Source: a virus
DNA: 24,061 bases
Direction: 5' to 3' (one strand)
Virus record (IMG/VR): IMGVR_UViG_3300046008_000044
Coordinates: 1 to 24,061 of that record
A program made the position numbers and the translations under genes. The notes under the pieces are model-generated. The model did not search any database. It was not told the DNA's origin and saw nothing but the letters and a program-made list of their open reading frames with translations. The first letter of the stretch is position 1; every line of letters begins with the position of its first letter. Below are positions 3,071-23,253 of the stretch, in pieces.

Positions 3071-4325
3071 CCCGATTGACTTAGGCTACAAGCCTCGGTT
3101 ACCACAGAAAGAGATACACAAGGCAGTAAGAGAGAATCGTTTTGTTGTAGCTGTAGCGCATCGTAGGATGGGTAAAACTGTTTCTGCTATTGTACAATTG
3201 ATACATTCTGCGTTACAGAACACACAAAAGAATCCTAGGTACGCTTATATAGCACCGACTTACTCACAGGCTAAAAGGGTCGCATGGGATTACCTTACAG
3301 AATATACTCGCTCACTTGGTGGTACTGCAAACATCGCAGAGCTAAGAGTGGACTTCCTGGGCAGAAGGATCAGCCTGTACGGTAGTGAGAATGGTGATAG
3401 CTTACGTGGTCAATACTTTGATGGTGTTGTGCTAGACGAGATAGGTGACCAAGACCCAAAGATTTGGAATGAGATTATAAGACCGGCACTAGCAGACAGA
3501 AAAGGTTTCTGTTTGTTTATTGGCACTCCAAAGGGGAATAATCATTTCCGTGAGTTCAAAGAACGTGCAATGGTTACAGAAGGCTGGAAGTTCTTAGAGT
3601 TTAAGGCTAGTGATACTGGCATACTAGACCCACAAGAGTTGGCTAGTGCTAAGAACGAGATGGGCGAGGACAAGTACAAGCAAGAGTTTGAGTGTAGCTT
3701 TGATGCGCCAGTAGAAGGTGCTTACTATGGGTCACTATTACATGAAGCTGATAACGAGAAGCGTGTTACTAAGATTCCTAAAGACTCATTGGCAAAGATT
3801 GTTTGTAGCTGGGATTTGGGTGTCAGCGACAGTACGTGTATTTGGGTAGCGCAGATAGTTGGTAAAGAGATACAGCTAATAGATTGCACAGAAAACCACG
3901 GTGTCGGATTAGACTATTATGTTAGTTGGTTACGTGATAATGGTTATGACAAGGGTCAGCAGATACTTCCGCACGATGTAAGAGTCAGAGAGATGACTAC
4001 AGGTCGCAGCAGACTTGAGGTGTTGATGGAAGCTGGACTAGATGTTACTGTAGCACCAAGCCTATCTATAGCAGATGGCATTCAAGCAGTCAGACGTATG
4101 CTTCCACGATGCTGGTTTGATATGGAACGCACAAAGAGTGGTCTGGTAGCATTGCGTAACTATAGACGTGAGTTTAACGAGAAGCAGAACGTGTTTTATG
4201 ATAAGCCGGTACATGATTGGTCATCACACTTTGCAGATAGCTTTCGTTACATGGCAATAGGATTAGTAGAAGTAGATACAACATGGTCTAAACCATTACA
4301 ACAAAATAAGGCATGGGTCGTATAA
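3057..4325 (+). CDS. terL: Terminase large subunit (ATPase/nuclease)
   Basis: The 422-residue packaging motor. The ATPase half has a Walker A-type motif VAHRRMGKT (residues 33-41), Walker B VVLDE (124-128, D127/E128) and a coupling motif LFIGTPKG (153-160). The C-terminal RNase H-like nuclease starts at SWDLGVSDST (251-260, acidic D253) and ends with HFADSFRY (D394 as a likely metal ligand). It pumps the genome through the portal and cuts the concatemer. Length is usual for compact TerL proteins. The start overlaps TerS by 14 bases and the stop overlaps the portal start as TAATG, so all three are probably co-translated. Whether packaging is headful or site-specific cannot be judged without the phage termini. 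Confidence 0.97.
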   Translation: MTTTNPIDLGYKPRLPQKEIHKAVRENRFVVAVAHRRMGKTVSAIVQLIHSALQNTQKNPRYAYIAPTYSQAKRVAWDYLTEYTRSLGGTANIAELRVDFLGRRISLYGSENGDSLRGQYFDGVVLDEIGDQDPKIWNEIIRPALADRKGFCLFIGTPKGNNHFREFKERAMVTEGWKFLEFKASDTGILDPQELASAKNEMGEDKYKQEFECSFDAPVEGAYYGSLLHEADNEKRVTKIPKDSLAKIVCSWDLGVSDSTCIWVAQIVGKEIQLIDCTENHGVGLDYYVSWLRDNGYDKGQQILPHDVRVREMTTGRSRLEVLMEAGLDVTVAPSLSIADGIQAVRRMLPRCWFDMERTKSGLVALRNYRREFNEKQNVFYDKPVHDWSSHFADSFRYMAIGLVEVDTTWSKPLQQNKAWVV

Positions 4326-6475
4326 TGATGAATCAAGAAGAGTTAAAGGCACTATGTGCTGACGAAATCAATAACGCTATTGGCTACTTAGAGTCCGATA
4401 CTGTTCAAGAACGTGCTGATGCCATGAACTACTACTTCCGTGACAAATACGGAACTGAGGTAGAAGGTCGTAGCCAAGTAGTTACCGGTGAGGTAGCTGA
4501 AGCCGTAGATGGTGCATTGCCACAATTGATTCGTGTATTCACATCATGCGAGGATGCTGTCCGTTTTGAGGCTACCAAGGATGGTGAAGAACCACTAGCT
4601 GACCAAGCTAGTGACATGGCTAACTGGGTGTTCTATAAAGATAACGATGGCTTCTTAATCCTACACAACTGGTTCAAGGATGCATTGCTACAGAAGGTCG
4701 GTGTAGTTAAAGCCTACTGGGAAGAAAAGAAAGACACCATCAAAGAGAAGTATAAAGGCTTAACCGATGACGAGTTAGCCATGATTATGCAGACAGGCGA
4801 GTGGGAAATCACCAAGCAAGTAACTGACATTGTTATTGGTATTGATGGCTTCCCTTACAACACACACAGCGTAACGATTGAGCGCATCCAAGATGACAGC
4901 CGTATTGCTGTTGAGAACGTACCACCTGAAGAGTTTCTAATTAGCAAACGTGCTAAGACTATTGAGGACTCACCATTCACAGCTCACCGTAGAATGATTG
5001 CCCGTGGTGACTTGATTGCTATGGGTTACGAGAAGTCTATCGTTGATACTATCCCAGCCGGTGACCGTTTAGAGTATTCACCAGAGCGACTAGCACGTTT
5101 TGGTCGTGACGAGATGCCAGACTACGCACAGTCTACTGACCTATCAATGGAAGAGGTAGAGATATTTGAGTGCTACATCAAGGTTGATACAAACGATAAC
5201 GGCTTGCTAGAGTTACGCAGGGTTATCATTGGTGGTGAGCAGATTCTATCTAATGAAGAGTGCGACTACGTACCATTCCACTCTGTATGCCCAATTCCTA
5301 TTCCACACAAATTCTTTGGTCAATCACTAGCCGACAGGACAATGGACTTGCAACTAACCAAGTCTACTATATTGCGTCAAATGCTAGACAACTTGTACCT
5401 AACTAATAACGCACGTGTTACAGCCGTAGAGGGTCAAGTTAACCTAGATGACTTACTAACTTCTACTGCTGGTGGTGTTATCCGTGTTAAGAATCCTCAA
5501 GCAGTAAATCAACTAACAGTAGCAAACACAGCCGGTCAATCATTCCCGATGATGGAATACTTGGATGGTGTACAGGCTAAACGTACTGGTGTTAGTGACC
5601 TACAGCAAGGTCTTGATGCTAACGTGCTTCAGAACACTACAGCAACAGCCGTGGCAGCCATGATGCAACAGTCAGCAGGTAAGCTAGAGCTAATGGCTCG
5701 TATCTTTGCTGAAACAGGTGTCAAATCACTATTCCGTGGCATCTTGCACCTACTATGCAAATACCAAAACCAAGCTAAGACAATCCGTATGCGTGGCAAA
5801 TGGGTATCTTATGACCCACGTGAATGGTCTAACCTATACGAGGTATCAATCAACGTAGGCTTGGGCAACGGCAACCGCCAAGAGCAGATTGCTATGCTAC
5901 AAATGATTATGTCTAAACAGGAAGAAATCATCGGCAAGTACGGTGCTAACAACCCATTGGTGACTGTAACGCAATATCGCAGCACTCTTGGTCGCATGAT
6001 TGAGATGGCTGGCTTTAAAGACACAACATCATTTATTAATGAGATTACACCAGAAGTTGAACAACAAATAATGCAGCAAGCAAGCCAAGCACCGGCTGAT
6101 CCAAACTCTGAGGCAGCGCAGTTATATGCAAGAGTAGAAGAACAGAAGGCTCAATTGTCTGCACAGACTGCCCAGGCTAAGTTACAACTAGACCGTGAGC
6201 AAATGCAAGTAGAGAATGCTCGTAAAGAATTAGAGTTCCAACAAAAGCAAATGCAACTTGAAGGCGAGTATCGTATCAAGGAAGCTGAATTGCAATTGAA
6301 ACAGATGGAATTAGAAGTTAAGACACAGGCAACTGATGGCAAGCTACAGACAGAGCAGCTTAACGCTATTATGTCAGCCATTACTAGCTTGAATGAAATG
6401 GTAAAAGGTGGTATAAAGGCTGAACCACAAGATATGGAAGAAAACTTTGATATTGACACAACCTATGGTGCATAA
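4325..6475 (+). CDS. Portal protein, P22-like
   Basis: About 716 residues, close to the 725 of the P22 portal. The N-terminal third (AMNYYFRDKYGTEVEGRSQV, then an IRVFTS block) follows the pattern of P22-like portals. The core contains helical wing and stem segments, and residues about 590-690 are a Gln/Glu-rich coiled coil (repeats of QMQ, ELQLKQMELE) comparable in place to the P22 portal barrel. The dodecamer forms the DNA channel at one capsid vertex and docks TerL, then the adaptor. I prefer the ATG at 4325, which overlaps the TerL stop as TAATG; ATGs at 4313 and 4328 are in frame. Large size and coiled-coil tail argue against HK97-type portals. Confidence 0.92.
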   Translation: MMNQEELKALCADEINNAIGYLESDTVQERADAMNYYFRDKYGTEVEGRSQVVTGEVAEAVDGALPQLIRVFTSCEDAVRFEATKDGEEPLADQASDMANWVFYKDNDGFLILHNWFKDALLQKVGVVKAYWEEKKDTIKEKYKGLTDDELAMIMQTGEWEITKQVTDIVIGIDGFPYNTHSVTIERIQDDSRIAVENVPPEEFLISKRAKTIEDSPFTAHRRMIARGDLIAMGYEKSIVDTIPAGDRLEYSPERLARFGRDEMPDYAQSTDLSMEEVEIFECYIKVDTNDNGLLELRRVIIGGEQILSNEECDYVPFHSVCPIPIPHKFFGQSLADRTMDLQLTKSTILRQMLDNLYLTNNARVTAVEGQVNLDDLLTSTAGGVIRVKNPQAVNQLTVANTAGQSFPMMEYLDGVQAKRTGVSDLQQGLDANVLQNTTATAVAAMMQQSAGKLELMARIFAETGVKSLFRGILHLLCKYQNQAKTIRMRGKWVSYDPREWSNLYEVSINVGLGNGNRQEQIAMLQMIMSKQEEIIGKYGANNPLVTVTQYRSTLGRMIEMAGFKDTTSFINEITPEVEQQIMQQASQAPADPNSEAAQLYARVEEQKAQLSAQTAQAKLQLDREQMQVENARKELEFQQKQMQLEGEYRIKEAELQLKQMELEVKTQATDGKLQTEQLNAIMSAITSLNEMVKGGIKAEPQDMEENFDIDTTYGA

Positions 6476-7741: not shown

Positions 7742-8686
7742 ATGGCAACATATCAAACCTATACCAGCATTGGTCAACGTGAAGACTTGGCTGATGTTAT
7801 TTACAACATCTCACCTACAGATACACCATTTATGACATCTGTTGGTAAAACCGCAGCTACTGCTGTATACCACGAATGGCAAACAGACAGCTTGGCTGCT
7901 GTAAACGTATCAAACGCTGTGGTTGAGGGTGCAACTGCATCTGACGCAACACTATCTCCAACTACTCGTGTTGGTAACCGTACACAAATTTCACAAAAAA
8001 CCATCAAAATTTCTGGTACTTTGGAAACTGTAAACAAAGCTGGTCGTAAATCAGAAAAAGCATACCAATTGGCTAAGGCTTCTGCTGAAATCAAACGTGA
8101 CATGGAAGCTATCCTATTAAGCAACCAAGTTGCTTCTGCTGGTGACTCTTCTACTGCTCGTGTTTTGGGTGGCTTACAAACATGGTTAAGCTCAAACTAC
8201 TCTGGTGGTACTTCTGGTACTGCTGGTTCTTTGGGTACTACTGCTCGTGTAACTGGTACAGACCGTGCTTTCACAGCAGCTATCTTAAACACAGTAATCC
8301 AATCTACTTACACTAACGGTGGTTCACCAACTTTGTTGATGGTAACTCCAGCTCAAAAAGTAGTTGCATCTACATTTGCCGGTATCGCTACTCGCTTTAA
8401 AGATGTACCTAGCAATGTTCAAGCAGCCATCATCGGTGCAGCAGACGTTTATGTTTCTGACTTTGGTACTATCTCTATCGTGCCTAACCGTTTCATTCCT
8501 AACTCAGACAATGATGACGTAGCATTCTTATTAGATCCTGAAATGGCTGCTGTATCTTACTTGCGCCCATTCCAAACTAATGAGCTTGCAAAAACTGGCG
8601 ATGCTGATTTAACTCAGTTGCTAGTTGAGTATACATTAGAAGTTAAGAACCAAGCAGCACACGGTATCATCGCTGACTTAACCTAG
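7742..8686 (+). CDS. Major capsid protein, SU10-like (DUF5309)
   Basis: A 314-residue coat protein of the phage SU10 major capsid family (DUF5309). The diagnostic N-terminus is visible: QREDLADVIYNISPTDTPFM (residues 13-32), a short linker, then YHEWQTDSLAAV (residues 42-53), with a helix KAYQLAKASAEIKRDMEAIL further on. It has the HK97-type coat fold in known relatives. Codon choice differs from the flanking genes, with strong preference for TCT, GCT, GGT and ACT, as expected for the most expressed virion gene. AAGGAA lies 5 bases before the ATG. A GC-rich hairpin follows the stop, probably setting mRNA level or stability relative to downstream genes. The family is very clear. Confidence 0.96.
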   Translation: MATYQTYTSIGQREDLADVIYNISPTDTPFMTSVGKTAATAVYHEWQTDSLAAVNVSNAVVEGATASDATLSPTTRVGNRTQISQKTIKISGTLETVNKAGRKSEKAYQLAKASAEIKRDMEAILLSNQVASAGDSSTARVLGGLQTWLSSNYSGGTSGTAGSLGTTARVTGTDRAFTAAILNTVIQSTYTNGGSPTLLMVTPAQKVVASTFAGIATRFKDVPSNVQAAIIGAADVYVSDFGTISIVPNRFIPNSDNDDVAFLLDPEMAAVSYLRPFQTNELAKTGDADLTQLLVEYTLEVKNQAAHGIIADLT

Positions 8687-8737: not shown

Positions 8738-9055
8738 ATGAGTAATACAATATCCAACGGCATTACCAATACATCGTTTATTGATAACGGTGACCAATTA
8801 GTTATAGCTAAGAGCCAAGACATTACAAGCATACTTGAGATGAACAAGCGTGAGTACGCTGCTCAAGACGAACGTAAGACATGGGGCAATGATGCCTTTA
8901 GTAATAAGGTCGCATCTATACCGCTTACCGTGTTCTCAGAATTAGAAAAGCAAGGCATTACTAGAGGCTTTGCAGTAATAGATAAGAAACGATTTAACGA
9001 ATGGTTAAACAATCCCGACAATAGGGCATTTCGCACAAGGGCAGGGCGCATCTAA
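8738..9055 (+). CDS. Small virion-region protein after the capsid gene
   Basis: A 105-residue protein. It opens SNGITNTSFIDNGDQLVIAK, has QDITSILEMNKREYA and WGNDAFSNKVASIPLTVF in the middle, and ends NPDNRAFRTRAGRI. The same overall pattern, including the terminal R.R.GRI, is one I associate with unnamed proteins coded right after SU10-like capsid genes. Start choice: the ATG at 8738 has GAGG 5-8 bases upstream; the GTG at 8702 lies in the hairpin stem and is unlikely. Its stop overlaps the adaptor start (TAATG). A head-neck or minor head role is inferred from position. Confidence 0.8.
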   Translation: MSNTISNGITNTSFIDNGDQLVIAKSQDITSILEMNKREYAAQDERKTWGNDAFSNKVASIPLTVFSELEKQGITRGFAVIDKKRFNEWLNNPDNRAFRTRAGRI

Positions 9056-9675
9056 TGGCATTGACAAACTACGCAGACTTACAGACTACGATTGCCAGTT
9101 ACCTAGCTCGTAGTGATTTAACGGCAATGATTCCTGACTTTATTAGGCTTGCTGAAACACGTTTACGCAGAGAACTCCGTATTCGTCAAATGCTCAAGGT
9201 AGTGACAACAACTGCAACGGCAGGTGATTCAACAATTGAGTTACCGTCAGACTTCTTGCAAATGCGTGACATTCACCTAGCAACAAATCCAGTAACAACA
9301 TTAGAGTACCAGTCACCTAGCGCATTATTCCGTAATTCTCGTACTACTGACTCTGGTCTACCGCATCAATACACAGTATTAGCGCAAGAGTTTCAGTTGT
9401 CACCAGTACCAGACAGCAACTACACAGTAAATCTTTTATATTATGCTGCACCAACATTTTTAAGTAGCACGACAGCATCCAATGCATTTATGGCTAACTG
9501 CCCTGACTTATTGCTTTATGGTGCTTTAGGTGAAGCAGAGCCTTATATTATGAATGATGCAAGGTTACAAACATGGGCATCATTGTATGACCGTGGTGTA
9601 AATGCTTTAACCGTATCAGATGACCAAGGCGAGTATGCTGGTTCACCAATCTCAATCTCAATAGCAACACGATAA
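9055..9675 (+). CDS. Head-tail adaptor, SU10-like
   Basis: A 206-residue protein of the SU10-type phage adaptor group. Visible features: an N-terminal YADLQTTIASYLARSDLTAM, the helix PDFIRLAETRLRRELRIRQM (residues 26-45), a beta region with ELPSDFLQMRDIHL, and a later TVNLLYYAAPTFL strand. In known relatives the adaptor forms a ring beneath the portal and links it to the nozzle, comparable to gp4 of P22. Gene order (capsid, small protein, adaptor) agrees. Start overlaps the upstream stop. Confidence 0.85.
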   Translation: MALTNYADLQTTIASYLARSDLTAMIPDFIRLAETRLRRELRIRQMLKVVTTTATAGDSTIELPSDFLQMRDIHLATNPVTTLEYQSPSALFRNSRTTDSGLPHQYTVLAQEFQLSPVPDSNYTVNLLYYAAPTFLSSTTASNAFMANCPDLLLYGALGEAEPYIMNDARLQTWASLYDRGVNALTVSDDQGEYAGSPISISIATR

Positions 9676-9685
9676 AGGAATTATT

Positions 9686-10072
9686 ATGTCAGAAATGTCC
9701 AACTACCTAGAAAATGCGCTGATTAATGTAACGCTACGAGGCACAGCATTTACAGCACCAACAACAATTTACGTGGCACTTTACACAAGTGACCCTACAG
9801 ACGCCAACACAGGCACAGAAGTATCTGGTGGCTCTTACGCACGTACATCCGTAACCTTTGCTGCACCATCTAACGGGGTGAGCTTATCTAACGCAGACTG
9901 CACATTCTCACAATGTACGGTTGCATGGGGTACGGTAGGTTGGATTGGTTTAATGGATGCGTCAACATCTGGGAATCTTTTATACCATACTCCACTAGAC
10001 GTATCTAAAACAATTGATGTAGGCGATATATTTAAGATTGCGTCAGGCAGTCTTTCAGTAACATTATCATAG
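9686..10072 (+). CDS. Beta-rich tail or virion surface protein
   Basis: A 128-residue beta-rich protein. It begins MSNYLENALINVTLRGTAFT, followed by TTIYVALYTSDPTDA and a GSYART stretch. The 'NYLEN..I...L.GT.FT.P...YV.L.T..PTD' pattern recurs in phage virion proteins annotated as tail or decoration-like proteins; I know no proven function. Its place between the adaptor and the first tail fibre suggests it belongs to the tail. AAGGAA precedes the ATG. Confidence 0.75.
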   Translation: MSEMSNYLENALINVTLRGTAFTAPTTIYVALYTSDPTDANTGTEVSGGSYARTSVTFAAPSNGVSLSNADCTFSQCTVAWGTVGWIGLMDASTSGNLLYHTPLDVSKTIDVGDIFKIASGSLSVTLS

Positions 10073-10080
10073 GATAAAAC

Positions 10081-11436
10081 ATGGCTCTTATAGTCAAAGA
10101 CAGGGTACAGGAAACCTCTACCACTACCGGTACTGGTACGTTTACTCTTGATGGTGCTAATAGTGGCTTTGCTACATTCTCTAGCGCAGTAGGTAATGGC
10201 AACACAACTTACTACGCTATTGTAGGCGGTACAGAGTGGGAAGTAGGTATTGGCACAGTAGGTGCTGGTACGTTAGCAAGGACTACACTACTTGCGTCAT
10301 CTACAGGCTCTGTTATATCGTTTAGTGCAGGCATTAAAAATGTATTCTGTACCTATCCTGCTAGTAAATCTGTAACCATAGACGATATACAGACTCTTAC
10401 CAATAAAACAATCAACTTAGCCAGCAATACTTTAACTGGCACAACAGCGCAATTTAATACAGCTCTTTCAGATGGTGACTTTGCTACTTTAGCCGGTACT
10501 GAAACGCTTACAAACAAAGCACTAAATGGCACTCTAGGTGCTACGACACCTTCTACCATTGCTGCTACTACTATTAGTGCTAGTGGTGTATCTACATTCT
10601 CTGCTGGCTCTGCTGCTGCTCCTGCCATTACAACGAGTGGTGATACCAACACAGGAATATTATTCCCTGCTGCCGATACCATAGCATTTTCTGAAGGTGG
10701 TGTTGAGTCAATGCGTATTGATGCTAATGGAAATGCATTAATAGGTACTGCCAATGCTATAGGGAAATTAGGTGTTGCAACTGCATCTGCAACAGGCGCA
10801 CCTAGTGTATGGAACAACGGATTCTTTACCGTAGCACCTAATGGTGCAACTACTTCAGGCGGAGTAGGATTATCTTTTGATACTACAGGAAATACAGGAG
10901 CTATAACGTGTTTAGCTCCTAGTGTAGCATGGCGAAAATTAAAATATTTTGCATTAAACCATGATTGGATTGTAAATAATGGCGCAACTACAGGGATGAC
11001 CTTAGATGCAAGTTCAAACTTAGCTATTACTGGTGCGCTATCGTTTGGGTCTTTTTTAGGGGGCATAGGTAAAGTAGGTACTTTGTCTAGAAATACAGGT
11101 ACAGGTACAGGTACGGTTGCATATACTGGCGTAGGATTTAAACCTTCTGCAATTATATTTATTGCAGCTATAGGCACATTACCAGTTCAAAGTATTGGAT
11201 ATACTGACCCAACAACTGGTGGTTGTTTATACATAGATAACTATTATGGTTCAGGCGGTAGTAATTACGCTAATGCTATCTATTATTTACGCTCGTCAGC
11301 AGGAAACGGGAACATACAACAAGCAAATATATCAACAATGGATGCAGATGGATTTACGTTATCTTGGACTAAAACAGTTATTGGTACTGGCGCACCAACT
11401 AATACTATGACCATATATTATTTAGCTTTTAGATAA
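10081..11436 (+). CDS. Tail fibre protein
   Basis: A 451-residue fibre. The N-terminus (MALIVKDRVQETSTTTGTGT) is the virion-attachment beta domain seen in many phage fibres, continuing with YYAIVGGTEWEVGIGTV. Residues about 100-170 carry the classic shaft repeats TLTNKTINLASNTLTGT and ETLTNKALNGTL. Residues 170-230 (SGDTNTGILFPAADTIAF, SMRIDANGNALIGT) are the collagen-free beta-roll pattern common before receptor-binding tips. Residues about 332-451 form a distinct C-terminal domain with paired glycine-rich strands ending DGFTLSWTKTV...YYLAFR, probably the receptor-binding head. A perfect (ACAGGT)3 tract encodes TGTGTG at its start. The C-terminal half looks more AT-rich, as expected for exchanged host-range modules. 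Confidence 0.85.
   Translation: MALIVKDRVQETSTTTGTGTFTLDGANSGFATFSSAVGNGNTTYYAIVGGTEWEVGIGTVGAGTLARTTLLASSTGSVISFSAGIKNVFCTYPASKSVTIDDIQTLTNKTINLASNTLTGTTAQFNTALSDGDFATLAGTETLTNKALNGTLGATTPSTIAATTISASGVSTFSAGSAAAPAITTSGDTNTGILFPAADTIAFSEGGVESMRIDANGNALIGTANAIGKLGVATASATGAPSVWNNGFFTVAPNGATTSGGVGLSFDTTGNTGAITCLAPSVAWRKLKYFALNHDWIVNNGATTGMTLDASSNLAITGALSFGSFLGGIGKVGTLSRNTGTGTGTVAYTGVGFKPSAIIFIAAIGTLPVQSIGYTDPTTGGCLYIDNYYGSGGSNYANAIYYLRSSAGNGNIQQANISTMDADGFTLSWTKTVIGTGAPTNTMTIYYLAFR
11095..11112 (+). repeat. (ACAGGT)3 hexamer repeat in the tail-fibre gene
   Basis: Three perfect copies of ACAGGT in frame, coding Thr-Gly three times, at the junction before the C-terminal domain of the fibre. Copy-number slippage would change linker length by two residues without breaking the frame. 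Confidence 0.6.
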
Positions 11437-11445
11437 GGAATTAAA

Positions 11446-11784
11446 ATGAATCGTATATCAATACAAAAATCTACTGGCAAAATCATTGAAATGCAATCAG
11501 GTGGTGATACTGATGACCAAGAGTTAGCTAATGCTAGATTAGATACATTAAAACAAAATGCTATTACTATAGGGTTTGATGAATCAGATATTGAAGTTAA
11601 ATGGATAACTGACCAAGCGTATGCTGAATTAGCAAAAGCACAAAAAGAGCCACTATCATATTATGAATCACGAAAACTAGCTTACCCATCTATTGCTGAC
11701 CAATTAGATACTATTTTTCATAGCGGAATAGACGCATGGAAAGCCGAAATACAAGCTGTTAAAAATCAATATCAAAAAAGTTAA
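11446..11784 (+). CDS. Tail-fibre assembly-like protein
   Basis: A 112-residue protein behind the fibre gene. The last 45 residues hold the pattern YPSIADQLDTIFHSGIDAWK then EIQAVKNQYQ, which matches the 'YP.i.dQLD.i...G...W...I..VK..YP' ending found in phage fibre-associated proteins. The N-terminal half is polar and variable. Such proteins act as fibre chaperones or minor fibre components; which applies here cannot be told. AAGGAA sits before its ATG. Confidence 0.7.
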   Translation: MNRISIQKSTGKIIEMQSGGDTDDQELANARLDTLKQNAITIGFDESDIEVKWITDQAYAELAKAQKEPLSYYESRKLAYPSIADQLDTIFHSGIDAWKAEIQAVKNQYQKS

Positions 11785-11787
11785 ATA

Positions 11788-11826
11788 ATGCAATTAATAA
11801 AATTAATACCCAGAGACAATAAATAA
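11788..11826 (+). CDS. Possible 12-codon leader ORF
   Basis: ATG at 11788 encodes MQLIKLIPRDNK and its TAA overlaps the next ATG as TAATG. The next gene has only a weak AGAGA ribosome-binding site, so coupling through this mini-ORF may help its translation. It could equally be a remnant of a lost gene or chance. No function is claimed. Confidence 0.25.
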   Translation: MQLIKLIPRDNK

Positions 11827-12539
11827 TGTTTGGAATATCAGCATTTTCTCAAGGCACATTTAGTGCAATAGCTAATCAGATTCTATTAGCAACTGCAAGT
11901 GTTGATGGTAATGCACTTGTTAGTGCTAATGCAAATCAAATTAGTAGCGCAAATGCTATAATAGTAGCTAATGCAGCAGTTACTGCTAGTGCAAATAGAA
12001 CAAGACTAAATTCAGCTCAAATTAATGGTCTTGCAACAGTTAGCTCTAATGCCATTAGGGTTAGGACATCAACTGGAAGCATTAATGCGTTAGCAAGCGT
12101 TTCTAGCGGTTCTAGCGTTATTTATAGCGGAAATGCTGTAATAACAGGTAATGCCACAGTACAATCTAGTGCATTTAGAATAAGAACTTCTGCTGGCAGC
12201 ATAAACGGTAGTGCAACAGTTACAAGTAATGCAATAAGAATTAGAACTGCATCAGGCTCGGTAGTCGGGCTTGCTACAGTTACGGCACTTGGTGGTGTTC
12301 AATACAGCGCAGATGCACATATTAATGGAATTGCTTTAGCAACTGCTAACGGTAGTGCAATATGGTACGGTAAAGGTGCAATTGCAGGAAATGCTACTGT
12401 AGTCGCAAGTGGTACAAAGTTAGGTGATAACTGGATACCAGCACCAGAAAGTATCAATACTTGGACAGACACATCAGTAACATCAAATACATGGACAAAT
12501 ACACCAGTAAGTAGTAATACATGGCTTTTAAAGGGATAA
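11826..12539 (+). CDS. 20-residue-repeat tail protein (beta-solenoid-like)
   Basis: A 237-residue protein built from an exact repeat. Residues 21-200 divide into nine consecutive 20-residue units with no insertions, each of the form x(4)-(I/V)-x-G-x-A-x-V-x-(S/A)-x(6), for example SINGSATVTSNAIRIR. Alternating small and hydrophobic residues suggest a beta-solenoid or a trimeric beta-roll fibre. Residues 211-237 switch to a 10-residue Trp repeat (NTWTDTSVTS, NTWTNTPVSS, NTWLLKG), a possible cap or attachment. Position between two fibre genes makes a fibre shaft component likely, but I do not recognise the protein. It is Ala/Ser/Thr/Asn rich, with no Cys and a single Met, the initiator. Confidence 0.7.
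   Translation: MFGISAFSQGTFSAIANQILLATASVDGNALVSANANQISSANAIIVANAAVTASANRTRLNSAQINGLATVSSNAIRVRTSTGSINALASVSSGSSVIYSGNAVITGNATVQSSAFRIRTSAGSINGSATVTSNAIRIRTASGSVVGLATVTALGGVQYSADAHINGIALATANGSAIWYGKGAIAGNATVVASGTKLGDNWIPAPESINTWTDTSVTSNTWTNTPVSSNTWLLKG
11886..12425 (+). repeat. Nine diverged 60-bp tandem repeats (coding)
   Basis: The DNA counterpart of the nine 20-residue units. Copies are diverged but keep exact 60-base spacing; some are still close at DNA level, for example around 12060, 12180 and 12240 (stretches like AGAACTTCTGCTGGCAGC and AGAACTGCATCAGGCTCG). Recombination between copies could change the number of units without frame loss. Confidence 0.6.
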
Positions 12540-12542
12540 ATT

Positions 12543-13439
12543 ATGGCTAAGAATAAGATAAGTGAGTTTTCATCAACACCAGCAAACAATACAGATATTG
12601 GTGGTATTGATATTGCAGAGGGATGTGCGCCTAGTGGAATTAATAACGCCATTCGTGAATTGATGGCACAACTTAAAGACCAACAAGTTGGTACAGACGC
12701 AGATAACTTTACTGTAGGTGGTAACTTATCTGTTACTGGCACAACTACTGCTACTGGTTTAATTACTGCTACTGCATTAACAACTACAGGAAATACAATA
12801 TTAGGGGATGCTTATACTGATACATTAAATGTTGGCAATAACGATTTCATTAAAGATGCTAGTGGAAATGTACAAATTGGAACTTCATCTAACGCATCAA
12901 ATTATAAATTAACTATAGCTTTTGATGGTGGTGCAGTTAATGGATTAAATTTATATAATACTAATTCTGGTGGCAACCCAACATTATTTTCAATATCTGA
13001 TACAGCACAATCATTAAATAATACTTCATGGTGTGCTCAATATAGTGACAGTACTACTCAGCGTTGGGTGCTAAGAAAAAATGGTGGACTTTCTAACTAT
13101 CAAGCAAACGATACAAATCTTTCTGATGAACGTACTAAGAAAGATATCATTGATGCAGGTAATTATCTAAACAAAATATGTGCCATTTCTGTTCGTACAT
13201 TCTTATATAAAGACCAAACAGATAATTTATTAAATCTTGGTGTTATTGCTCAAGAAGTAGAAGCAGTTGCACCTGAATTAGTTGATGTAAGCGGATTTGG
13301 TGAAACTCCTAAAGATGGTATCCCATTAAAAGCGATTTACCAAACAGATTTGCAGTATGCGCTTATGAAGTCTATTCAAGAACTTAAAGCTATTGTAGAT
13401 ATACAAGCAGAACGCATAGCATTATTAGAGAATAAATAA
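12543..13439 (+). CDS. Tailspike/fibre with S74 self-cleaving chaperone domain
   Basis: A 298-residue fibre. The N-terminus (MAKNKISEFSSTPANNTDI, then GCAPSGINNAIRELMAQL) is a widespread virion-attachment domain. Residues 58-120 are beta-shaft repeats. The C-terminal ~108 residues are the intramolecular chaperone of endosialidase type (peptidase S74): LSDERTKKDI at 193-202 contains the conserved S-D-E-R-x-K box, with S194 and K199 matching the catalytic Ser/Lys pair, followed by GVIAQEVEAVAPELV and a terminal helix. The domain trimerises the fibre and then cuts itself off just before the Ser. The middle is short, so the enzyme or receptor domain is small or absent. ATAA spacing to the previous gene is tight. 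Confidence 0.9.
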   Translation: MAKNKISEFSSTPANNTDIGGIDIAEGCAPSGINNAIRELMAQLKDQQVGTDADNFTVGGNLSVTGTTTATGLITATALTTTGNTILGDAYTDTLNVGNNDFIKDASGNVQIGTSSNASNYKLTIAFDGGAVNGLNLYNTNSGGNPTLFSISDTAQSLNNTSWCAQYSDSTTQRWVLRKNGGLSNYQANDTNLSDERTKKDIIDAGNYLNKICAISVRTFLYKDQTDNLLNLGVIAQEVEAVAPELVDVSGFGETPKDGIPLKAIYQTDLQYALMKSIQELKAIVDIQAERIALLENK

Positions 13440-13708: not shown

Positions 13709-15139
13709 ATGGCTACCCAACGTATAGCATTTACAGAATGGACTCCAGACTTAGCAGGTGTTGCTGAGAACTTGTCTGTTGCACAAAATGTAGTACCAAC
13801 TGCGCTAGGTTATAACCCATTCCCATTAGCCGTAGACTATTCTGCTGCTGCAAGTGAAAATCTTAATAATGTATTTGCTGGTAAGTTTAGTACGACAACA
13901 AGCATATTTGCCGGTGGTGCTACTAAGTTATTCAAATTAGATAGTGCTGACTTGAGCATGGATAACGTATCTAAGTCTGGCAACTATTCAAGCGTAGTTA
14001 AATGGAACTTTACACAGTTTGGCAATACTATTATTGCAGCTAATAACGTCAATATATTGCAAGCCTATACTTTAGGGTCAAGCTCACTATTTGCTGATGC
14101 AAATGCAAGCGCACCAATAGCTAAATTTGTTACCGTAGTCCGTGACTTTGTTGTGGCTGCTAACTTAGATGCTGGTAGTAATTCAAACAAGGTGCAATGG
14201 TCTAACATCAATGATGCAACAAACTGGACAGCCGGTGGCGCAAGTCAGTCTGACTTCCAAATAATTGCCGATGGTGGCAACATTACTGGTCTGACCGGTG
14301 GTGAGGTTGGATTAATATTACTAGACCGTGCCATTGTTCGTATGTCTTACATTGGCTCACCGTTATTCTTCCAATTTGACACAATCAGCCGTGGTGTTGG
14401 TTGCGTAGAAGGTAACTCTGTTGTTCAGTACGGTTCTATGACTTACTTCTTAGGTGATGATGGCTTCTATTCATGCGATGGCTCTACAGTAACTGCCATT
14501 GGTACACAAAAGGTAGATGCATGGTTCTATGCTAATGTAAACCAATCAAAACTTAACTCAATGTCAGCAACGATTGATCCAATTCGCAAGATAGTAGTTT
14601 GGAAGTTCATTGACAACTTTGCACAAAACACATTGCTTATCTATAACTGGCAAGTACAGAAGTGGTCATCTTGCACTACTGACGTTGATGTTGTTGCTAG
14701 TTCTGCATCAGCAGGCATGACGTTAGAAGGATTAGACTTATACGGCAACATGGACACATTGACTACTTCTTTAGATGACGCATTGTGGACAGGTGGCAAG
14801 TTCTTATTTGCAGGTACTAGGGCTACCAAAATAGTAACCTTTACTGGTGCTAACTCTACAGCTACATTGACAACTGGTGACATAGGAAGCGAAGTAACTT
14901 CTGTGGTTACATTGGCACGACCAGTAGTAGATAATGGCTCTGGGAGCGTAGCAATTGCTTCTAGGATGCTTTTGAGCGCAGTACCACAGTTAGGTTCATA
15001 TACAGCAGCAAGTAGCGAGAATCGTGTATCATTACGCAGTAGTGGTAAGTACCATCGTTTATCAGTAATTCCTACTGGAAGCAATTGGTCTAATGCCATT
15101 GGTATTGATATTGATGTTACACCACAAGGCACAAGATGA
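13709..15139 (+). CDS. P22 gp10-like tail/stabilisation protein
   Basis: A 476-residue protein, almost the same length as P22 gp10 (472), the packaged-DNA stabilisation protein that follows the adaptor in the tail machine. The sequence is beta-rich with propeller-like blades: repeated stretches such as IIAANNVNILQAYTL, VVAANLDAGSNSNKVQWSNI, WNINDATNW-type and YFLGDDGFYSCDGSTVTAIG. The N-terminal RIAFTEWTPDLAGVAENLSV resembles the start of nozzle and tail-hub proteins in short-tailed phages. It should form the nozzle under the adaptor ring. The exact match to gp10 versus another nozzle family needs profile comparison. AAAGGA precedes the ATG. Confidence 0.75.
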   Translation: MATQRIAFTEWTPDLAGVAENLSVAQNVVPTALGYNPFPLAVDYSAAASENLNNVFAGKFSTTTSIFAGGATKLFKLDSADLSMDNVSKSGNYSSVVKWNFTQFGNTIIAANNVNILQAYTLGSSSLFADANASAPIAKFVTVVRDFVVAANLDAGSNSNKVQWSNINDATNWTAGGASQSDFQIIADGGNITGLTGGEVGLILLDRAIVRMSYIGSPLFFQFDTISRGVGCVEGNSVVQYGSMTYFLGDDGFYSCDGSTVTAIGTQKVDAWFYANVNQSKLNSMSATIDPIRKIVVWKFIDNFAQNTLLIYNWQVQKWSSCTTDVDVVASSASAGMTLEGLDLYGNMDTLTTSLDDALWTGGKFLFAGTRATKIVTFTGANSTATLTTGDIGSEVTSVVTLARPVVDNGSGSVAIASRMLLSAVPQLGSYTAASSENRVSLRSSGKYHRLSVIPTGSNWSNAIGIDIDVTPQGTR

Positions 15140-21447: not shown

Positions 21448-21911
21448 TGAAACATATATTACTTTTTCTTACTTTATTATTTGTAACTACAGTTTATGCC
21501 GATGAAACGACAATTAATTATAAAGGTCAACCTGTCCCCTCTGCTATGGCTCCTTCAATGTCGGCTTTCAGTCAAGACGTTTGCAGTATTGGTATTAGCG
21601 GTGCTGTCAACGGTGGTATATTTTCTGTAGCCGGTGGTACGATGGTCACAGATAGCAATTGCGTTAAATTACGCTGGGCTAAGTTTTTAAGTGATAGTGG
21701 ACTAAAGGTAGCAGCAGTATCATTAGCCTGTGCAGCTAACCATGAAAACTGGGTTGCAATGGAAATGTCCGGTTCTCCCTGTCCTGTAGGCGGTGCTATT
21801 GGTGATGCAGCTAGAAAGGCTTGGTATGATTTACATCCAGATTGGTTTGAAGCAATATATGGCAAGGACTTTGTACTTATTACTCCTTTGCCTAATTCTA
21901 AAGAGCAATAA
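21447..21911 (+). CDS. Secreted Cys-containing protein
   Basis: A 154-residue protein with a clear signal peptide: MKHILLFLTLLFVTTVYA, cleaved before DE. The mature part has four Cys (VCSIGISGAVNGGIFSVAGG, NCVKLRW, LACAANHENW, SPCPVGG), probably forming two periplasmic disulphides, and ends AWYDLHPDWFEAIYGKD. The 'CS.G.SG....G..S...G' and 'C....A.....L...G...AA..LAC' layout is one I associate with unnamed phage proteins. A lysis-block location suggests a role at the envelope, but no lytic motif or lipobox is seen. The last 53 bases also encode the signal peptide of the next gene in another frame. Confidence 0.7.
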   Translation: MKHILLFLTLLFVTTVYADETTINYKGQPVPSAMAPSMSAFSQDVCSIGISGAVNGGIFSVAGGTMVTDSNCVKLRWAKFLSDSGLKVAAVSLACAANHENWVAMEMSGSPCPVGGAIGDAARKAWYDLHPDWFEAIYGKDFVLITPLPNSKEQ

Positions 21912-23253
21912 TGCTAGTGCATACTGTTATGCAGGTGCTTGGGAAAATAATATGCCAGTTTACTCAAGCCTTGGTGTGGCTCAAGGTACGACTATGCAGG
22001 CTTGTCAGCAACTTGCGTGTCAGATTTTTCCTAACATACCTGAGTGTGGTCAACCTACAGTACCTACCTGCTCAGACCGTGAGGAAGTGCAAAGTTTGGC
22101 TTGCGAACCGAATCACTCCGGCTCAATCAACCAAACAAGAACCTATCAATGCCAGACATCTAGCTACACAGCTTGGACTACAACCTCAAACAATTGTAGC
22201 CCAAACCCAGCAACCTGTACTTACAGCGCACAAACAGAAGAAAGGCAAACCTGTGGGAGTAACCAAATCGGCACGGTCACGTACAAGAAAGAACAAAACT
22301 GTCCAGACCCATACGGCAGCCCTGTTGACTCAGGGTGGTTTGAAATCTCAAGGTCGTGTCAGCCAGCTCCTCCAACGTGTCAAACAACTGTTGAAAGTCA
22401 GAATTTAGTATGCCCACAAAACTTCTCTGGCTCAATACAGCAAACAAAGACAAATATTTGCTCAGACCCGTATGGACAACAAACGGAAGGCATATGGACA
22501 ACGGTATCAAATTCATGCACACCAAATCCAGCAACCTGCTCAACATCAACTCAAATTAGGACTCTTTCATGTCAAGATGGCTTCATTGGCTCAATAACAG
22601 AAAACAGAACTTCTGTCTGCTCCACACCATACAGCGAACCGCTATGGAGCGATTGGACTCAGTCACAAGACACTTGCGTAAAGAGTCAAACAAACCCAAC
22701 GAACATGACCAGTCCGGTAAACCCAGCAAGTCCGTTGAGTCTACCAGCACCGCCACCACCTGCGCCAGAGCCTCCAGCAGAGCAACCACCAGAGCCACCT
22801 CCACCGGAAGCACCACCTCCAGCAGAAGCTCCACTACCGGAAGCTCCAAAGGCAGAGGCAGCTCCGGCAGCACCACCGCCAACAGCCTCGTCAGGAAGCA
22901 CAAGTACACAACCATCACAACCAGCCGTGAGTGCGCCAACGACATCCTCAACAGGGAATACGCAGAATACCTCGCCAGTACAAGTGCCGGCAGGGAAGAC
23001 GTTAGTACAAGGGTTTGGGCTAGTAATGAGCCTAGAGATTTTAAACAAGCCGATGCAAACTCAGGAGATTCAATTGAACGATGCATTGGCATACCAGCAG
23101 GAGTTACCGTATGAGCTTAGAGGAAATCAAGGAGTCTTACTCCAACTTATCACCGAAAGCAATATTTCTGACGCTTTCAATAATCTTGCCAGCGATAGGT
23201 GGAACAGCCTACGTAGGGATAACGACTTACAATCGTGTTATAGCTGCGACTGA
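21859..23253 (+). CDS. Secreted Cys-repeat, Pro-rich protein with probable frame switch
   Basis: As it stands the frame encodes 464 residues. MARTLYLLLLCLILKSNNAS(A) is a signal peptide, whose codons overlap the previous gene by 53 bases; upstream in-frame ATGs are less likely. The mature part has a Cys-rich lead (22-70), then four repeats of about 50 residues (71-119, 120-173, 174-226, 227-275), each with C...C...G.I......C...W.....C, reminiscent of thrombospondin-like modules. A Pro/Ala/Glu-rich linker (about 295-341) follows, long enough to span the periplasm or project outward. Near residue 355 the coding signal moves to the -1 frame, which ends at 23114 with ATGA overlap to the next start. 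The residues after that point in this frame (and the 143-base overlap with the next gene) are therefore doubtful. Function unknown; adhesion, lysis or superinfection exclusion are possibilities. Confidence 0.65.
   Translation: MARTLYLLLLCLILKSNNASAYCYAGAWENNMPVYSSLGVAQGTTMQACQQLACQIFPNIPECGQPTVPTCSDREEVQSLACEPNHSGSINQTRTYQCQTSSYTAWTTTSNNCSPNPATCTYSAQTEERQTCGSNQIGTVTYKKEQNCPDPYGSPVDSGWFEISRSCQPAPPTCQTTVESQNLVCPQNFSGSIQQTKTNICSDPYGQQTEGIWTTVSNSCTPNPATCSTSTQIRTLSCQDGFIGSITENRTSVCSTPYSEPLWSDWTQSQDTCVKSQTNPTNMTSPVNPASPLSLPAPPPPAPEPPAEQPPEPPPPEAPPPAEAPLPEAPKAEAAPAAPPPTASSGSTSTQPSQPAVSAPTTSSTGNTQNTSPVQVPAGKTLVQGFGLVMSLEILNKPMQTQEIQLNDALAYQQELPYELRGNQGVLLQLITESNISDAFNNLASDRWNSLRRDNDLQSCYSCD
22926..23114 (+). 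other. Probable true C-terminus of the Cys-repeat protein, in the -1 frame
   Basis: This segment reads in the -1 frame relative to the gene at 21859. It encodes a protein-like tail including EYLASTSAGREDVSTRVWAS and SIERCIGIPAGVTV, stopping at TGA 23112-23114, which overlaps the next start as ATGA. From 22959 to 23111 I counted codons by hand. This frame has G or C at about 31% of third positions and G at about 46% of first positions. The annotated frame has about 55% G/C at third positions with G dominating, the signature of a non-coding shifted frame. No start codon exists in this frame after about 22800, so it is a continuation, not a separate gene. Confidence 0.5.

Follow-up and report, generated by a model that had tools for sequence, protein, structure and literature searches.

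Many phage tail fibres are intertwined homotrimers, and in the curli subunit CsgA, a beta-solenoid, each coil has two strands and about 20 residues. PMC4576200 describes the gp5 spike of phage T4, in which three chains are wound into one beta-helix, and passages of PMC10966104 describe the neck fibres of the myophage A-1(L), built as chains of three small proteins, whose tip carbohydrate-binding module did not bind the host. The A-1(L) fibres are an unrelated case and the gp80 of that phage is not the gp80 of phage GP4. Freshwater and marine phages have many fibre-like genes without family or function.

The stretch of DNA analysed here (the window) is a 24,061-base IMG/VR record with podophage packaging, head and tail genes, including a terminase. 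Between its fibre genes lies a gene for a repeat protein. We consider it moderately probable that this is a small neck or tail fibre or spike of an SU10-portal podophage, composed of an anchor peptide, a beta-coil shaft and a Trp-ribbed tip. The known kind in this case is the phage beta-fibre; the unusual element is a testable parity rule.

Modules of 20 residues and an even number of Trp decamers

An earlier note, made from the letters of the window, had placed nine exact 20-residue repeats followed by a 10-residue Trp repeat at 11826-12539. The ORF at this place starts with ATG on the + strand and encodes 237 aa. Its lag-20 BLOSUM62 autocorrelation over residues 13-200 was 1.31. Among 1000 shuffled versions the highest value was 0.17 and the mean -0.31. 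High values were also obtained at lags 40 and 60. The nine units (residues 21-200, 11886..12425, + strand) follow from this autocorrelation, from a profile of 1192 units and from relatives that differ by about whole units. They stand in one register over 180 residues, without insertion, as had been proposed. The exactness of the repeats was not retained, since identical residues were found at only 69/217 positions at lag 20; the repeat is exact in register, not in sequence. Expressed as z score, the lag-20 signal was 10.8 in the repeat protein vs at most 1.1 in 16 of the 17 other window genes tested. The remaining gene, at 21793-23253 (486 aa, with Cys-rich repeats and a Pro-rich stretch), scored z 4.1; as listed, its start overlaps the previous ORF in a different frame.

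Even lags mostly outscored odd lags in the autocorrelation of the repeat protein, a pattern that was taken to indicate beta strands whose faces alternate. The unit profile (20 columns) combines 1192 units of MFG-type relatives; its positions 14, 16, 18, 20, 2, 4 and 6 are mostly Ala, Gly, Ile or Val and the positions in between mostly polar. After the alternating part comes a shorter segment, most often with the sequence Arg-Ile-Arg. One unit would thus comprise one long alternating strand and one short strand. The repeats had a pooled pN/pS of 0.34 against nine near relatives, and the gene is under purifying selection.

The first 20 residues (11826..11885, + strand) form a putative virion anchor, judged by their conservation and by their replacement as a block in a sister subfamily. 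M1, F2, G3, A6, F7, S8 and S13 were invariant in 40 aligned relatives, all of which had been fetched by scans using this peptide as pattern. The pN/pS of the peptide was 0.39, not below that of the repeats. Two main subfamilies were distinguished by the N-terminus, MFGISAFSQ... in the window protein and MADLLPPWTIDSLDNL... in the MAD-type; in the latter the other N-terminus is swapped in as a block, and the repeats and the Trp array are kept. The subfamily profiles aligned without gaps through repeats and Trp array (249 columns, E 1.9e-60), the row of the window protein being itself 20 residues short in the Trp array. Two more N-termini were found, one in the contig L026 and one in phage C72C1. 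A swappable start joined to a constant remainder is what a docking peptide on a rod would be expected to show.

At least 220 distinct ORFs of the family were collected from 350 of 359 sources, nearly all of them environmental contigs; from the other nine no closed ORF was obtained, as an ORF had to reach its stop within the source to be taken. An ORF was counted when it had at least 120 aa with an MFG-type start, or at least three Trp at exact spacing, a rule by which non-MFG members with fewer Trp are missed. Many sources were repeat fetches of one contig; identical proteins were counted once and 5'-truncated copies may count apart. The first scan of viral contigs gave 184 relatives, of which the best 80 were used, and scans with other members added more. 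These scans favoured the MFG start. The family is larger than the ORFs collected. A scan of viral contigs with the divergent L004 protein found no relative, and neither did a search of bacterial and archaeal genomes with the start-peptide pattern, among the 80 matches listed.

Relatives with other repeat numbers, which the earlier note had suggested looking for, were found; from one to another, array length changes by about a whole number of 20-residue units. Among 133 MFG-type proteins the first Trp (0-based) lies at 182-184 in 19, at 202-205 in 99, at 245 in one and at 263-264 in 14. The distance from DAYGS to the first Trp in 61 MAD-type proteins is 122 residues in six, 182 in 31, 200-202 in 23 and 242 in one. 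Array lengths thus cluster about 20 residues apart, within 3 residues. Relatives at about 35-50% identity keep the conserved positions.

Among named phages, relatives occur in Venkman, a phage of the Methylophilales strain H5P1, and in four spring-water genomes. Venkman gp51 (QLF88126.1) and its counterpart in MW202481 (UOF77505.1) are homologous to the whole query, with 36-38% identity over 98-100%, and share its anchor, repeats and Trp array, the latter with six W in MW202481 vs four in the window protein. The window protein has the features by which the family was defined on Venkman gp51: an anchor of the MFGxxxFS type, 20-residue units, and Trp at 10-residue spacing to the C-terminus. The deposited names differ, "HERC6 ubiquitin ligase" for Venkman gp51 (L002 8001-8717) and "serine-rich adhesin" for MW202481 (L001 8001-8777), and both probably misannotate this family; the searches turned up no experiment on either protein. 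Passages of PMC8163748 report a short tail for Venkman in TEM, and the authors allow for tails lost on the grid and list the phage as a siphovirus. Judged by these homologous sequences, in Venkman as among the 220 or more ORFs, the repeat protein is not a lone oddity.

The 10-residue Trp repeat was confirmed at residues 201-237 (12426..12539 with the stop, + strand), where W203, W213, W223 and W233 are separated by three 10-residue steps and followed by four residues. The window protein thus has an even number of Trp, and four or six were present in 219 of the 220 family ORFs: with strict spacing, 44 had four and 175 had six. The sole exception by strict spacing, L004, was scored with three and actually has six, one step being of 9 residues. 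Two more distant relatives at a comparable place break the parity, as MW202879 has three W, and phiM5_18 three W with a Tyr where a first one would stand.

A FastTree tree was built from 105 nine-unit cores (out of 144 MFG-type cores, the Trp array being excluded after the first W), and on it four and six Trp were interchanged at least 11 times. The lower bound was 11, 10 and 6 after collapsing branches below 80, 90 and 95% support, respectively; exchange of C-termini between lineages by recombination could lower the true number of changes. If single and double decamer changes were equally likely, 11 doubles running would be expected about once in 2000 cases, and 6 about once in 64. In the 175 six-Trp arrays the DNA identity of the decamers was 0.538 for neighbours (lag 1) and 0.533 for those two apart (lag 2). 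As neighbouring and two-apart decamers are equally alike, slippage or recombination should give steps of one decamer too. The decamers change pairwise although their DNA permits single steps, and from this we infer that two decamers make one 20-residue structural unit.

The decamers themselves gave no independent proof of such a unit, as no excess of likeness between two-apart decamers was found. At the protein level two-apart decamers were not consistently more alike than neighbours in the MFG-type (63 vs 39 of 106), and in the MAD-type they were more alike in 24 and neighbours in 30 of 56. At the DNA level neighbours were more alike in 100 and two-apart decamers in 74 of the 175 arrays. An antiparallel meander is as compatible with the parity as a solenoid is.

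In summary of the arrays, modules of 20 residues begin at about residue 21, relatives differ by about whole modules, and Trp decamers are even in number in the close family. A separate C-terminal cap, as the Trp segment had been read in the earlier note, is not favoured, because the decamers of the close family vary only in pairs, in the same 20-residue module size; the segment is probably two or three further 20-residue modules. An otherwise different protein of MW202566 (L360 1018-3132) ends in four Trp spaced 10, 12 and 10, and Trp-decamer tails may be a wider motif.

Family searches and predicted fold

No family of Pfam (to E 1) or NCBIfam matched the window protein. The earlier note knew of no characterised fibre with this arrangement, and as far as the searched libraries and papers go this view stands. 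The literature searched yielded no paper on repeats of this kind. Among the PHROGs no named fibre and no named family matched. A match was obtained to phrog_7964 (function not named, E 3.6e-7), for which only 2/40 family members matched at 0.01. The family is a large and little-studied one of aquatic phages, without a curated model in the libraries searched.

Several candidate families were considered. DUF2807 (PF10988), a family of adhesin beta-solenoids, gave no match to the window protein at E 1, and in L241, a very regular sister, reached 11.3 bits vs a gathering score of 24.2. DUF2807 and DUF4097 appeared below threshold in 4/42 members of the sister family each, with E up to 1, and these hints of a solenoid were no more frequent than clearly unrelated families in the same list. 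The curlin repeat profile in Pfam gave no match at E 1 in the window protein. The same was true for Bflower_3 (PF21786), which reached 21.3 bits vs a cut-off of 34 in L033 and was detected in 4/40 relatives at E 0.1, with a best E of 5.4e-6. ProQ_C (PF17516) passed once, in L275 (25.5 vs 23.3 bits), and was judged a chance match because it covers 28 repeat residues with no stretch passing on its own. The C-terminal peptidase S74 domain of Pfam was absent from the repeat protein and present in the next gene. Sequence searches against solved structures gave no significant match, with a best E of 0.16 for the 40-row alignment and 0.12 for the 42-row MAD-type alignment.

AlphaFold2 prediction of the window protein as a monomer, with 40 sequences, had a mean pLDDT of 35.7 and a pTM of 0.23, with strands every ten residues to about residue 134. 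For L241, predicted with 42 of the 48 non-redundant MAD-type rows, the mean pLDDT was 48.2, with 56-61 over residues 51-180. This model shows a long and a short strand per 20-residue cycle, and its Trp array is without structure (pLDDT about 32). Foldseek searches were done with the L241 model only, as that of the window protein was too poor. No significant match was found in the PDB (best E 0.62); the best 50 of the 68 matches are, as we take them, nearly all beta-helices and solenoids (LpxD, GlmU, VacA). In BFVD five proteins matched at 0.001, all uncharacterised or nameless. VIA, which only re-aligns Foldseek's own solenoid-rich list, placed CsgA (8c50_A) at the top with Z 16.4, but with an rmsd of 10.4 over 234 for the low-confidence model, followed by 3lyc_A with Z 12.1 and an rmsd of 3.9 over 186 for the same model. 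3lyc_A presumably belongs to DUF2807.

From these models a two-strand solenoid is slightly favoured, as a lean and not as proof. Of the regular solenoid or trimeric roll that the earlier note had expected, regular beta structure was well supported by the 20-residue step in the relatives and the alternation of polar and apolar residues, and the choice between the two leans to the solenoid from weak models. Intertwined trimers commonly give weak monomer predictions, and those of the window protein and L241 were weak or failed. The protein may instead be an intertwined homotrimeric fibre, a triple beta-helix of spiral or prism type, with the Trp array as the end that locks the trimer. The T4 gp5 spike is a precedent for a beta-helix of three chains (PMC4576200), and the repeat gene lies among fibre genes. 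Against the trimer, the L241 model resembles single-chain solenoids, and the window protein has neither a Pfam family at E 1 nor a PHROG of a named fibre. We regard the trimer as an appreciable possibility, and doubt it more than we expect it.

The gene cluster between adaptor and nozzle

The virion module of the window is marked by an SU10-type portal (4313..6475; PF23899, E 2.4e-211), followed by an SU10-type major capsid protein (7742..8686; PF17236, E 2.7e-98) and a head-to-tail adaptor (9055..9675; phmmer to 7z47_A E 2.2e-11 and to 9nwi_A E 2.6e-10). Next comes a gp80-like protein (9686..10072), a possible docking partner, which matched PF23140 'Podophage GP4 fiber I protein gp80' (Pfam 7.5e-49) and the solved 8jou_a 'Virion-associated phage protein' (E 5.8e-15), which we take to be GP4 gp80. 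Thus the likely docking neighbour has a solved relative. Another tail fibre of 451 aa (10081..11436; phrog_18345 tail fiber, E 2.6e-7) and a 112-aa protein (11446..11784; phrog_9114, function not named, E 6e-12) follow, the latter possibly a fibre assembly chaperone by resemblance. The repeat gene sits between this 112-aa gene and a tail fibre with a C-terminal peptidase S74 chaperone (12543..13439; PF13884 E 1.7e-12; phrog_1980 E 4e-25), behind which lies a tail nozzle or stabilisation protein (13709..15139; phrog_3287 E 6.9e-62; 8zkm_E 'nozzle' E 2.1e-11). All these genes are on the + strand. At 2004-2495 the window has, by the look of the sequence, an HNH homing-type endonuclease.

The arrangement recurs in the family. 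Recognised neighbours were on the same strand as the repeat gene in 1174/1177 cases. Downstream, 175 loci had room for a further gene, and the first one recognised there coded for a nozzle (64 loci), a collar-type fibre (51), an S74 fibre (24) or something else (36). A nozzle was recognised in 136 loci, and in 62 of them it started within about 50 bases of the repeat gene. A gp80-like gene was recognised upstream in 152 loci, with the repeat gene within about 250 bases in 75. Of 19 other records with a related nozzle, five were examined (MW202710, HTVC106P, RHph_Y1_10, KLEP18-1 and Mae-JY35), and in all five a presumed adaptor was followed directly by the nozzle, with no gp80-like or repeat gene between; the comparison covers this interval, and the adaptor is annotated in KLEP18-1 and assigned by position in the other four. 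The repeat gene is thus a conserved and selected gene in a cluster of adaptor, gp80-like, fibre and nozzle genes. By this synteny the protein would be present in the virion; the literature searched gave no virion proteomics or image of it.

A second explanation starts from the same place between fibre genes and from searches that found no direct virion evidence for the family: the protein could be an assembly factor or scaffold of the tail fibre that is absent from the finished virion. In phiM5, where phiM5_18 has a comparable position, a note of detection in particles is attached to the gp80-like protein but not to phiM5_18. In BcepMigl a gene related to 'gp81 of phage GP4' stands before the gp80-like one, and gp57, adjoining the gp80-like gene, is annotated as virion associated, which speaks against a scaffold, but gp57 has no sequence homology to the repeat protein. 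As long repeats of modular length also suit a structural part, we find a scaffold unlikely. A low-complexity repeat of Ala, Ser, Thr and Val that DNA slippage maintains without any specific fold would match the simple composition and the low-confidence monomer models, but is already disfavoured and very improbable in view of the low pN/pS, the positions conserved at about 35-50% identity, and array lengths that move only in steps of about 20 residues when the DNA of the Trp array offers 10-residue steps just as readily.

A proposed beta-coil fibre and its gp80-like neighbour

In the favoured reading as a small neck or tail fibre, each 20-residue module would be one beta-coil of a long and a short strand, and the coils would be stacked into a stiff rod, docked on the neck or tail by the short N-terminal peptide, perhaps through the gp80-like protein. 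The rod would be short, with about 11 coils in the window protein and perhaps 5 nm, at one 4.7 A step per coil. Its last two or three coils would carry one Trp per half and give an aromatic-ribbed tip, which may either bind a sugar of the host surface or lock the end of the rod. The Trp ladder would suit both; as the tip of A-1(L) did not bind its host, a receptor role is not to be taken for granted. Evolution would tune the length of the rod one coil at a time; with an odd number of Trp half-coils the C-terminus would come to lie on the wrong side. A large family here gains defined parts (anchor, 20-residue coils, Trp coils) together with a testable geometric rule. If the reading is right, length and tip of the fibre become readable from sequence, a natural ruler for the question why phages change fibre length.

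A lag-20 signal was also found beside gp80-like genes of other phages. A rule was drawn up on ten phages not belonging to the close set, in which the gene directly after the gp80-like gene had z of at least 2.5 with a best lag of 20 or 40 in 8/10, or in 5/7 without C72C1, MEP402 and CRP-5, which had entered through repeats or their folds. Eight more phages gave z of at least 2.5 at this position in 4/8 (Itty13, Archie, CRP-4, MW202476); the best lag was 20 in MW202476 only and 41, 18 and 36 in the others, which makes 1/8 when the lag is required as well. Pooled, 12 of 18 next testable genes after the PF23140 gene reached z of at least 2.5 vs 4 of 120 other genes, with Fisher p values of 0.0004 (eight phages) and 5e-10 (all 18) that ignore kinship and the 3/18 found through repeats. 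CRP-4 and CRP-5 are related, as are Archie and Lumos. The genes directly following in ACP17 were too short and the next long one was scored; X1 has its next gene on the opposite strand. Three of the four positives among the 120 background genes lie within three genes of the gp80-like gene. As 6/18 PF23140 phages are without the lag-20 signal in the next gene, a high score after PF23140 is a trend, not a law.

A bolder proposal is that the PF23140 docking protein and a rod of 20-residue beta-coils form a widespread, interchangeable fibre module across very different tails, with rod length in whole coils and a tip parity that arises as two decamers make one coil. We hold it to be doubtful; if true, rod length could be read module by module from sequence alone.

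Some single genes near PF23140 may be mentioned. In Mycobacterium phage Lumos the minor tail protein gp22 (L374 1242-2459), directly upstream of the PF23140 gene, has a 20-residue period with z 6.9. Methylophilales phage MEP402 has gp62 (L361 3256-4071) directly after its PF23140 gene, with 20/40-residue repeats and then a different Trp-rich C-terminus. Fibre-like genes come next after the gp80-like gene in MW202481 (L001 2285-2773, with an HNH gene between) and in Venkman (L002 2494-2982), both with a best lag of 20 and with z 2.9 and 1.8, respectively, so that a second repeat protein is possible in these two genomes.
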